Part shown: piece after piece, positions 30,898 to 33,878 of the stretch
Layout of the letters: each line of letters opens with the position of its first letter
Position numbering within the stretch: position 1 is the first letter of the stretch
Source: Actinomycetes bacterium
GTDB lineage: Bacteria; Actinomycetota; Acidimicrobiia; Acidimicrobiales; RAAP-2
DNA: 36,295 bases
Direction: 5' to 3'
NCBI GenBank assembly: GCA_021790675.1
Contig: JAJYGN010000002.1
Location: 1 to 36,295, forward strand
Notes under the pieces: model-generated
What the model saw: only the letters and a program-made list of their open reading frames with translations
Told to the model about the DNA's origin: nothing
Databases searched by the model: none
Translations under genes and position numbers: made by a program

Positions 30898-30933
30898 GGA
30901 AGGAGGATTGGTCGCCTTGTTCAAACGAGGCGG

Positions 30934-30939
30934 TACCTT
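30934..30939 (+). promoter_or_regulatory. Leaderless -10 box TACCTT for dnaG
   Basis: CGGTACCTT, six bases, ATG at 30946. The downstream sigma-like gene would be on the same transcript. Confidence 0.5.
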
Positions 30940-30945
30940 ACGAGC

Positions 30946-32760
30946 ATGGCGATTTCGGACGACGACATAGCGCAGGTGCGCGCTGCCACCGATATCGTCG
31001 CGCTGATCTCCGAGCACGTAGCCCTGAAGAAGTCGGGCCGACGCTGGAGCGGCCTGTGCCCGTTCCATGGCGAGAAGACCCCCTCGTTCTCGGTCAACGC
31101 CGAAGAGGGCCGCTACTACTGCTTTGGCTGTCGGGCCTCGGGTGACGCGATCACCTTCGTGCGCGAGATCCAGCACCTGGACTTCATCGACGCGCTGCGT
31201 CAGCTGGCCGAACGTGCGGGCATCGAACTGCACGAGGACGCCAACGCCACCAAGGCTCGCAAGGAGCGCCAGGAGCTGCTCGGCACCATGGAGTCGGCCG
31301 TCGAGTGGTATCACCAGCGCCTCCTCTCGGGTTCCGACGCGCGAGCCGCGCGGGACTACTTGCGCGGTCGCGGCATTGACGGCGACGTCGCGCGTCGCTT
31401 CAAGCTCGGTTGGGCGCCCGACGAGTGGGACGCCCTGACCAAGGCGCTCAATCTCAACGAGCGCCAGCTCATTGGAACGGGCTTGGGATTTGTCAACAAG
31501 CGTGACCGTCGCCAGGACGCCTTGCGCGCGCGTATCATCTTTCCCATCTTCGACACCTCGGGCAAAGCCATCGCCGTGGGCGGGCGAATCCTCCCGCCGG
31601 CGCCCGGATCGGCCGAGCCCGAGCGCCACGAGGCCAAGTACAAGAACTCGCCGGAGACGACGATCTACTCCAAGCGCCGCACGCTCTACGGGCTCAATTG
31701 GGCTAAGGACGAGATCATTCGCTCCGGCGAGATCATCGTGTGCGAGGGCTACACCGATGTCATCGCGTTCTTCGGCGCCGGGCTCGAGCGGGCGGTAGCG
31801 ACCTGCGGCACCGCCCTCGGCGAGGATCACTTTCGCACGATGAAGAACTTCGCGTCGCGTATCGTTCTCGCCTACGACGCCGACGCGGCGGGTCAGAGCG
31901 CGGCGGCCTCGGTGTACCAGTGGGAGAAGCAGCATCAGGTCGACGTCTTCGTGGCACGTCTGCCGCGCGGCAGCGATCCGGCGGACCTCGCGCGAAAGGA
32001 TCCCGCAGCGTTGCGTGCGGCGGTGGCGGACGCGCTGCCGTTCCTGCAGTTCCGACTCGAACGAGTGCTCGACGCCGCGTCCTTGGCCACCGCCGAGGGT
32101 CGCGCTCGCGCCGCCGACGCGGCGATGGTCGTGATCGCCGAGCACCCCAACGACCTGGTGCGTGACCAGTACGTGATGACGGTGGCGGATCGCCTGCGCG
32201 TCGAAGCCAACGTGCTGCGTACCGGGGTCGAGGCGGTGCGCCGTGGTGAGACGCCGGCTCCGGCGCCGCGTCGGGTCGCGCGTGAGGGCGGATCGATGCC
32301 GCGCCCGGCGCTCGAGGCGCTTCGACTCCTCGTGCACCAGCGCGACCTTGTCGAGGGACGACTGATTCCCGCGATGTTCGACAACGAGGTTCAACGCGAC
32401 GTCTTCGAGGTGCTGGCGACGGAGAGTCAGGTCTCGACCGTCGTCGACCAGCTGACCGCGCGCGGCGACGTCGACGCCGCCGATTTACTGGCACGCCTCG
32501 TGGTCGATGATCTGGGCCGCGTCTACAGCGCGGACGACGCGGCGGCCGTGATCGCCCAACTGCTGCGCGGAGCCGCCCAGAGGGAGCTGCGCGAGATCGA
32601 GCGCGACCTTCGTAGCGGTGCGATGTCTCCCCAGGACGTGCACGTGACGGTGCGCGACGTCAAGGAGCGCCTGCTTGCGCTCGACGGCGATCAAGGAGCG
32701 GCCGCCGAAGTGGATCTGCGTGAGTGGCTCACGTCACGCCGCGGCGCGGCTCGCCCGTGA
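30946..32760 (+). CDS. dnaG: DNA primase
   Basis: A 604-residue primase making RNA primers at the replication fork. The zinc ribbon uses C38, H41, C59 and C62 (CPFH...CFGC). The catalytic TOPRIM core has EGYTDV (267-272) and YDADAAG with D311 and D313 for metals. The C-terminal helicase-binding domain is helical and divergent, as usual. ATG at 30946 follows a TACCTT box; in-frame codons before it fall in the ABC promoter region. Its TGA overlaps the GTG of the sigma-like gene (GTGA). In many bacteria dnaG precedes rpoD in the macromolecular-synthesis operon; here it precedes a smaller, divergent factor. Confidence 0.97.
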   Translation: MAISDDDIAQVRAATDIVALISEHVALKKSGRRWSGLCPFHGEKTPSFSVNAEEGRYYCFGCRASGDAITFVREIQHLDFIDALRQLAERAGIELHEDANATKARKERQELLGTMESAVEWYHQRLLSGSDARAARDYLRGRGIDGDVARRFKLGWAPDEWDALTKALNLNERQLIGTGLGFVNKRDRRQDALRARIIFPIFDTSGKAIAVGGRILPPAPGSAEPERHEAKYKNSPETTIYSKRRTLYGLNWAKDEIIRSGEIIVCEGYTDVIAFFGAGLERAVATCGTALGEDHFRTMKNFASRIVLAYDADAAGQSAAASVYQWEKQHQVDVFVARLPRGSDPADLARKDPAALRAAVADALPFLQFRLERVLDAASLATAEGRARAADAAMVVIAEHPNDLVRDQYVMTVADRLRVEANVLRTGVEAVRRGETPAPAPRRVAREGGSMPRPALEALRLLVHQRDLVEGRLIPAMFDNEVQRDVFEVLATESQVSTVVDQLTARGDVDAADLLARLVVDDLGRVYSADDAAAVIAQLLRGAAQRELREIERDLRSGAMSPQDVHVTVRDVKERLLALDGDQGAAAEVDLREWLTSRRGAARP

Positions 32761-33587
32761 CGTCACGCGTCGGGGGTCTCGAGATCCTTCCGCCACTCAG
32801 CGTGGACGAGGAGCGCCAGCTCTATCCCGTGATCACACGCGGTCGTGAGGCTGCGCGTCAGCTTTCCGACGGTTCGCTTGACGTTGCTCAGCGTCGACGC
32901 CTCGCGCGCCAGCGTCAGGCCGGCCAGGAGGCTGAGCTGCGCCTGCTCCAGGCGACGTGCGGACTGGTGCGCACCCGCGTGCACGAGCGCGGCTATCGAT
33001 TCGGCAACGAGGAACTCGAGGCGGCCGGGGTCGAGGGACTTGCCAACGCCCTGCGCCGCTTCGACCCCGAACGGGGAGTGCGCTTCGCGACGTACGCCAA
33101 CTACTGGATCGTGAAGCTGGTGAATCAGGCGATTCAACACCAGGTCGGCCTCAGCGACTCAGAAATGCGCCGGGTGCTGGCCCTGGAGAAGCTGCAGCGG
33201 ACGCATCCGGAGACGACGTACACGCCACGCGAGGTCGCCCGAGAGTTGAAGATCCCGCTCGAGCGCGCGCGCGACGTGATCGCGAGCGCGCGCGACATCA
33301 ACGCGCGCCGATATGAACCCATGGCCTTCTTCGACGACACGGAATTGCACGAACCTCCGGCCCTCGACGATGCGCCGGCGTGGGTGATCGGGGCGCTGAA
33401 GCGCCTCTGCGGGGAGGATTTCAACGCCTTTTGGCAGCACTCGTTTCGCACCACGTCACTCGAGGAGTTGGCGCGGGCCAGGGGGATCACCCGCCAGGGC
33501 ATGGCCAAACGACTTGAGCGCTGCCGCGCGGCAGTTCGCGCGAGTGATGAGGCCCAGCGCCTCCAGGACTGGTTCGACCGCCAGTAG
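32757..33587 (+). CDS. Divergent sigma-70 family factor (RpoD position)
   Basis: A 276-residue sigma-like protein. Region 2 occupies about 61-127 (LRLLQATCGLVRTRV ... FDPERGVRFATYANYWIVK), a region 3-like helical stretch about 135-180, and region 4 a helix-turn-helix at 232-262 (TSLEELARARGITRQGMAK). It lacks region 1.1 and the long non-conserved region of RpoD. Compared with E. coli sigma-70, the -10-contact residues F427, Y430 and W434 are kept (F110, Y113, W117). W433 is Tyr (116), Q437 is Lys (120) and T440 is Asn (123). The -35 recognition helix TRERIRQIE is changed to TRQGMAKRLE. It could therefore be an alternative or accessory sigma with altered specificity. The GTG overlaps the dnaG stop, so it is coupled to primase. 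tRNA-Asn follows 40 bases on. Confidence 0.85.
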   Translation: MTSRVGGLEILPPLSVDEERQLYPVITRGREAARQLSDGSLDVAQRRRLARQRQAGQEAELRLLQATCGLVRTRVHERGYRFGNEELEAAGVEGLANALRRFDPERGVRFATYANYWIVKLVNQAIQHQVGLSDSEMRRVLALEKLQRTHPETTYTPREVARELKIPLERARDVIASARDINARRYEPMAFFDDTELHEPPALDDAPAWVIGALKRLCGEDFNAFWQHSFRTTSLEELARARGITRQGMAKRLERCRAAVRASDEAQRLQDWFDRQ

Positions 33588-33627: not shown

Positions 33628-33703
33628 TCCCAGATAGCTCAATTGGCAGAGCAAGCGACTGTTAATCGCTAGGTTGCAGGTTCGAGTCCTGCTCTGGGAG
33701 CCA
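33628..33703 (+). tRNA. tRNA-Asn(GTT)
   Basis: A 76-nt cloverleaf: acceptor TCCCAGA with TCTGGGA, D arm GCTC/GAGC, anticodon arm AGCGA / CTGTTAA / TCGCT giving anticodon GTT, T arm GCAGG / TTCGAGT / CCTGC, discriminator G and an encoded CCA. All stems pair. Confidence 0.97.
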
Positions 33704-33732: not shown

Positions 33733-33805
33733 AGGGCCGTAGCTCAGTGGTTAGAGCAGGGGACTCATAATCCCTCGGTCGTGGGTTCGATCCCCACCGG
33801 CCCTA
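33733..33805 (+). tRNA. tRNA with CAT anticodon (Ile2 or elongator Met)
   Basis: A 73-nt cloverleaf: acceptor AGGGCCG with CGGCCCT, D arm GCTC/GAGC, anticodon arm GGGGA / CTCATAA / TCCCT giving CAT, T arm GTGGG / TTCGATC / CCCAC, discriminator A and no encoded CCA. The A1-U72 top pair and the D-arm/anticodon sequence AGTGGTTAGAGCAGG...CTCATAATC resemble tRNA-Ile2, whose C34 is modified to lysidine by TilS. Elongator Met cannot be excluded. It is not an initiator, which would need a mismatched 1-72 pair and three G-C pairs below the anticodon. Confidence 0.9.
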
Positions 33806-33878
33806 CTGCGTCACGGATACTTCCGGGCACCTTTTGGTGAACTGGCTGGTGCGTTCGTGTGTCGGGACGCTCGCGGCC

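Follow-up and report, generated by a model that had tools for sequence, protein, structure and literature searches.

The gene that follows dnaG in the window (the whole 36,295-nucleotide stretch of DNA analysed) encodes a divergent protein that we judge, with moderate confidence, to be a working, genus-specific sigma70-family factor. On this reading it occupies the slot of the dnaG-linked RpoD, from which it most simply descended in place, and it serves a small promoter set of its own, with everyday transcription falling to a second sigma, C41. Textbooks present dnaG and rpoD as linked genes, and the housekeeping role is commonly assigned to RpoD. The genus studied here is a large one; it seems to be without canonical RpoD, carries a rewritten protein in its slot and apparently lives on a second sigma. 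Among the titles and abstract beginnings of open-licence PubMed Central articles, we found no description of such a divergent factor, or of the loss of dnaG-linked RpoD, in Acidimicrobiia.

The original prediction was of a 276-residue sigma-like protein, translationally coupled to dnaG through a GTGA overlap in the place where rpoD sits in the classic rpsU-dnaG-rpoD operon. The open reading frame and its four-base overlap were confirmed (Table 1), and the overlap suggests that the sigma is made together with the primase. The operon comparison held in part: the neighbour is dnaG, and the slot usually holds RpoD elsewhere in the order, but no rpsU was seen adjoining the window's dnaG. By eye, the next gene 5' of dnaG is a divergent ABC-transporter ATPase gene.

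Table 1. Features of the dnaG-sigma locus (positions are those of the window).
Feature	Position	Strand	Basis or remark
dnaG, DNA primase, 604 aa	30946..32760	+	TIGR01391, 389.7 bits, E 1.4e-116
Divergent dnaG-linked sigma70-family factor, 276 aa, GTG start	32757..33587	+	ORF, profile, alignment, model
GTGA overlap of dnaG stop and sigma start, 4 bases	32757..32760	+	dnaG stop TGA at 32758-32760
Regions 2.3-2.4, residues 102-128: melting aromatics kept, -12 readers altered (Y116, K120, N123)	33060..33140	+	
Place of the sigma 3.2 finger, residues 187-207	33315..33377	+	Majority fraction mean 0.37; pLDDT <50 at 187-201
Region 4.2 helix-turn-helix, residues 233-258; rewritten, conserved -35 helix (ITRQGMAKR)	33453..33530	+	
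tRNA-Asn(GTT), conserved right flank of the slot	33628..33703	+	
tRNA-Met(CAT)	33733..33806	+	
-10-like box GGTACCTT	30932..30939	+	Ends 6 bases before the dnaG ATG

In all 68 relatives with the dnaG start in view, the motif TACnnT ended 6 or 7 bases upstream of it; GG preceded the motif in 54 of the 68, and 2.5 were expected in shuffles. At this distance there is room only for a leaderless transcript, which suggests that the dnaG-sigma transcript is leaderless. We considered the box as the divergent sigma's own promoter and dropped the idea, because similar boxes stand before dnaG in several sister genera with canonical RpoD.

By profile, the protein is weakly but clearly a member of the sigma70 family. 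It scored 23.8 bits (E 4e-5) against Pfam Sigma70_r2, 0.2 bits below the 24-bit cut-off, and a search of the PDB returned SigA chains with E-values down to 4e-11. Its best score among the NCBIfam sigma models was 41 bits, with all models shown under their cut-offs, which are mostly in the hundreds. The RpoD family models were not passed (TIGR02393, 32.6 bits against a cut-off of 354). The profile search proposed with the original prediction gave a weak but clear family match. Sigma region 2 and a region 4 helix-turn-helix, both named in that prediction, are present; however, the weak Pfam 'region 4' match (residues 138-178) falls on the region-3 helix-turn-helix, and the true region 4 (residues ~208-276), missed by Pfam, is visible in the alignment and the model.

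Regions 1.2-2-3-4 keep their order and fold. The rewritten parts are regions 2.2 and 2.4, the -35 helix and the sigma finger. The alignments agreed with the prediction that F110, Y113 and W117 are retained and that Tyr116, Lys120 and Asn123 stand at the positions of E. coli W433, Q437 and T440; here the E. coli numbers W433, F419 and E420 and the region boundaries are those that we take to apply. F102, D103, F110, T112, Y113, Y116, W117 and K120 were invariant in all 28 aligned members, and N123 was present in 23 of the 28. The canonical RpoD Q437, T440 and -35 helix residues were absent from the window's protein. Region 2.2 reads ELEAAGVEGL in the divergent sigma and DLIQEGNIGL in E. coli RpoD, with A90, at the E. 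coli E407 position, invariant among the aligned divergent sigmas. The -35 helix (V)TRERIRQIE of RpoD has become ITRQGMAKRLE, in which Q247 and K251 were identical in 27 of 27 readable rows. Judged from the aligned sequences, this is a conserved replacement, not random decay. The majority fraction was 0.81-0.82 in regions 2.1-2.4 and 0.71-0.74 in region 4, and was lowest in the place of the finger (0.37).

E. coli positions 403, 406, 407, 409, 437 and 440 were taken from PMC8321222, in an excerpt of which 403, 406, 407 and 409 are the positions that hold the beta' coiled coil. The divergent sigmas have E/D, mostly A, A and mostly V there, respectively. According to the same excerpt, changes at core-contact positions weaken binding, and core binding by the divergent sigma could be weak because these residues are changed. 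The excerpt also describes endosymbiont sigmas with E407A and substitutions at 409, 437 and 440 in which the melting aromatics are kept.

An AlphaFold2 model from the alignment of 28 members (mean pLDDT 84, pTM 0.60) had twelve helices in the usual sigma order, and residues 187-201, in the finger place, were the sole stretch with pLDDT below 50. Over 115 residues, domain 2 of the model superposed on domain 2 of M. tuberculosis SigA (4x8k) to within 1.7 A (Z 15.1), and the best whole-chain structural match was SigB (9fjr, Z 15.5). Whole-chain fits to mycobacterial SigB and SigA covered 242-251 residues at an rmsd of ~25 A, a large value that we attribute to the domains sitting differently in the free model. 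By title, the top 50 Foldseek matches were RNA polymerase holoenzymes and initiation complexes, except 9a7s (RPSD-RPOB model). Structure prediction had been suggested as a way of deciding whether the protein is a sigma factor at all, and the model has a sigma70 fold, with domain 2 and region 4 matched.

The protein thus resembles the RpoD/SigA of the dnaG-rpoD (macromolecular synthesis) operon in its slot after dnaG, its region order 1.2-2-3-4, its modelled sigma70 fold and its melting aromatics. Unlike RpoD/SigA, it is 276 aa long without the long N-terminal part (the canonical median in the order is 470 aa), has regions 2.2 and 2.4, finger and -35 helix rewritten, and scores far under the RpoD model cut-offs shown. 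It shares length class and fold with group 2 (primary-like) sigmas such as mycobacterial SigB (9fjr), but is 22% identical over the aligned chain, has changed -10 and -35 readers and is dnaG-linked. The eroded Hodgkinia/Carsonella sigma, as given in the excerpt of PMC8321222, is likewise substituted at the E407A, N409, Q437 and T440 positions with the melting aromatics kept. That factor belongs to strict endosymbionts with a strongly reduced genome, whereas the window's protein shares a 2 Mb genome with several other sigmas, an intact RpoD-like one among them.

Within the genus, the divergent sigma was found in 88 of 99 genomes (E <= 1e-25) and in 55 of the 59 good genomes, with no internal stop in the listed matches. 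In G205 the copy is split over two frames; in G204 it is divided between two contig ends. Clean absences were seen in three genomes: in G013, G016 and G194 an intact dnaG is followed by tRNA-Asn, with 53 (L191), 46 (L182) and 23 (L181) bases, respectively, from the dnaG stop to the tRNA. At least in these members of the genus, the divergent sigma can therefore be dispensed with. The other genomes without a match were G002 and G031, in which the contig stops within dnaG, G196, in which dnaG itself was not found, and G206, G212, G214, G220 and G230.

Conservation of the dnaG-sigma pair, put forward as a check in the original prediction, was complete in the loci read. In the genus, dnaG lay 5' and tRNA-Asn 3' of the divergent sigma in 30 of 30 loci (out of 33 strong matches). 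A second, named collection contained 91 related stretches, and among the best 80 of these 91, which were kept, dnaG lay 5' in 77 of 77 loci with at least 300 bp upstream. Within the same best 80 of 91, a start giving the same 4-base overlap existed in 68 of the 77 loci with dnaG in view, and tRNA-Asn lay at most 200 bp 3' in 73 of the 77 with enough downstream sequence. By title, the records come mostly from uncultured organisms named as Acidimicrobiaceae, Actinomycetes or actinobacterium; bog, palsa and fen are the source of many, and a few are titled Acidobacteria or Saccharibacteria.

One relative, DAIDJP010000006.1, stands at 96%. In the comparison with the nearest relative, dS, dN and dN/dS were 0.304, 0.017 and 0.056 for the sigma and 0.272, 0.017 and 0.064 for dnaG. 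For two further relatives, in which silent sites are nearly saturated, dN/dS was 0.105 and 0.191 for the sigma and 0.099 and 0.176 for dnaG. Because the values are close to those of dnaG, the divergent sigma evolves about like dnaG, under purifying selection.

To place the gene in a wider context, the order was sampled with 59 genomes, one per genus, found by dnaG, and the region downstream of dnaG was read in the 58 others. The slot held a canonical RpoD in 47 (47/54 with enough sequence), with a median open frame of 470 aa; four of the 58 contigs end within 700 bases of dnaG. It held a divergent RpoD-type sigma in G091, G068 and G062. No sigma was found within 3.6 kb 3' of dnaG in G071, G094 and G086, or within 1.8 kb in G072. 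In the window's family, 13 sister-genus loci had been picked for canonical RpoD and so do not prove that every sister genome has one; dnaG lay 5' of it in 12 of 12 loci with upstream sequence (10 genera), and tRNA-Asn 3' in 7 of 13. Since canonical RpoD occupies the slot in most sampled genera of the order and in the sister-genus loci read, the slot is ancestral for RpoD.

The change in the slot seems to fall at the base of the genus. The most divergent genus members, G106, G181, G167 and G006 (34-41% identical), also have the short divergent protein in that slot, and no canonical dnaG-linked RpoD was found in the genus. At 1e-20, no more than two RpoD-like matches were obtained in 42 of 47 genus genomes, whereas 56 of 73 genomes from sister genera gave at least three.

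The three other order genomes with a divergent RpoD-type sigma after dnaG represent three other families (L124, L115 and L071 in G062, G068 and G091, respectively). The G062 protein (L124), whose region 2.4 reads ARNWIKQ and whose -35 helix is also altered, is perhaps an independent case. In G071, where no sigma was found after dnaG, a second sigma gene (G071:C2:64863-65684) is 47% identical to C41 and contains one in-frame TAA; it is possibly a pseudogene.

A tree with the genome's RpoD had been proposed alongside the original prediction. In the tree that was built, the divergent sigmas formed one clade (100/99) on a very long stem. When E. coli FliA and RpoS were included, the group fell beside the outgroup, a long-branch effect, and 13 of the 71 rows, being long or odd, were left out of a second tree. 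Without the far outgroups, the group attached among the dnaG-linked RpoDs. No placement was rejected by the AU test (dnaG-linked RpoDs, P = 0.53; C41 class, P = 0.32; third sigma class, P = 0.29), including that with the family's own RpoDs (P = 0.118, 21 log units lower). The mean profile score was 55 bits with dnaG-linked RpoD, as against 42 bits with the third class and 38 bits with C41, and RpoD profiles scored best in 19 of 20 members. They also scored best for the controls, namely C24 and two odd sigmas from G013 and G016, so the profile evidence for RpoD descent is weak. As the tree cannot place the long-branch group, descent in place rests on gene order, by which the divergent sigma most simply derives from the dnaG-linked RpoD.

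Could the canonical RpoD instead have disappeared, its place between dnaG and tRNA-Asn being filled by a different or acquired sigma? The group does not join the dnaG-linked RpoDs firmly, placing it with the RpoDs of its own family lowers the likelihood by 21 log units (P = 0.118), and the change looks abrupt, with no intermediate in the 13 sister-genus loci picked for canonical RpoD. A replacement would, however, need an exact swap keeping both neighbours. The most divergent members occupy the same slot, and the C-terminal tail is, by eye, closer to dnaG-linked RpoD than to the C41 class. We therefore regard replacement as unlikely. Far less credible is an RpoD copy in terminal decay that persists solely through its coupling to dnaG. 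Such decay would fit the three clean absences and the split frame of G205, but the listed matches have no internal stop, 55 of 59 good genomes keep the gene and its dN/dS equals that of dnaG. The original prediction had named a lineage-specific sigma with its own promoter set and a degenerating RpoD copy as its two possibilities. That the protein is a lineage-specific sigma gains from the gene's spread through the genus, the purifying selection and the presence of another full RpoD-like sigma in the genome; as a description of the present state, the second possibility is not supported, given the listed matches free of internal stops, the low dN/dS and the invariant melting residues.

The window's own genome contained ten region-2 matches: two are the full sigma70s C41 (on the contig of that name) and C24, one is the window protein, and the remaining seven look ECF-like by size and sequence. 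C41 has regions 1.2, 2, 3 and 4 far above the Pfam cut-offs and canonical -10 and -35 residues. Against the NCBIfam RpoD and SigB models shown, it does not reach the cut-offs, for which reason we call it only RpoD-like. With C41 as the query, all 59 order genomes gave a match at 1e-30, with 75-82% identity in 50 of the 58 others; the six order genomes with a divergent or empty slot had C41-type matches of 64-77%. The median pairwise identity was 0.78 in the C41 class (13 rows) and 0.50 among the dnaG-linked RpoDs (22 rows, three of them divergent), in genomes that were not matched between the two sets. Across the sampled order genomes, the second, C41-type sigma is thus better conserved than the dnaG-linked RpoD. 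We also considered whether C41 is the missing dnaG-linked RpoD moved elsewhere; this was ruled out, as C41 orthologues coexist with that RpoD across the order.

C41 is probably the housekeeping sigma of the genus. Seven of 47 genus genomes had no C41-level match (G167, G179, G184, G188, G189, G196 and G002). Each had a single RpoD-like match at 1e-20 (~1e-46 to 1e-50), presumably not C41, and completeness was at least 90% in six of the seven. The best RpoD-like match in G181 was 1.9e-54. In G035, the contig ends inside the C41-type gene, which suggests that missing C41 matches may be an assembly artefact.

We propose that the divergent sigma, as an initiating factor, would bind core RNA polymerase, probably through sigma2 and sigma4. 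Its kept aromatics would melt the -10 element, and its own conserved residues would read the -12 base pair and the -35 box, both in altered form. In this way it would be expected to direct a small, separate promoter set, with C41 probably carrying everyday transcription. It is less probable than replacement of the gene that the protein no longer initiates, being instead a relic with weak core or DNA binding and a modulating role, such as competing with or repressing the main sigma. Its changed core-contact residues, the poorly conserved finger place and the absence of the gene from three genus genomes would suit such a role. However, a mere core competitor would not need the melting aromatics and new -35 helix residues, which are invariant or nearly so, and dN/dS is low. 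Moreover, in the excerpt of PMC8321222 the endosymbiont sigmas altered at the same positions are the sigma subunit of their genomes.

For the preferred reading, that of a working sigma descended in place, we offer tentatively a fuller history, plausible though short of probable. Once a second ancient sigma sufficed for housekeeping, the former primary sigma of the dnaG operon would have been converted where it stood into an alternative sigma with a -12/-35 code of its own. Elsewhere in the order, the slot would have been independently rewritten (G091, G068 and G062, with a divergent sigma) or lost (G071, G094 and G086, with none seen). Canonical, divergent and absent slots form a natural series for primary-sigma replacement and change of promoter specificity, and if the in-place conversion is true, the turnover of a primary sigma is observable in progress. 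Naming a gene 'rpoD' by its slot can mislead.

Some further sigma genes were noticed. The C41-type sigma of G013 (L179:681-2225, contig C73) is enlarged by additional stretches, located in region 3 and in the non-conserved region; one of them resembles a carbohydrate-binding module of type CBM 5/12, with a Pfam E of 0.0018 that is below cut-off. Immediately 5' of this gene, L130:1525-2352 encodes a 276-aa sigma-like protein with regions 2 and 3 and no clear region 4. The C41-type sigma of G106 (L177:1088-2323) also has extra stretches in the non-conserved region and region 3. G016, which is without a dnaG-linked sigma, has a further sigma-like frame of 355 aa (L216:41-1105, contig C75), in which regions 2 and 4 are present. 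In the window's own genome, contigs C51 and C68 carry two nearly identical ECF-like genes near their ends (L005 and L006), probably an assembly duplicate.
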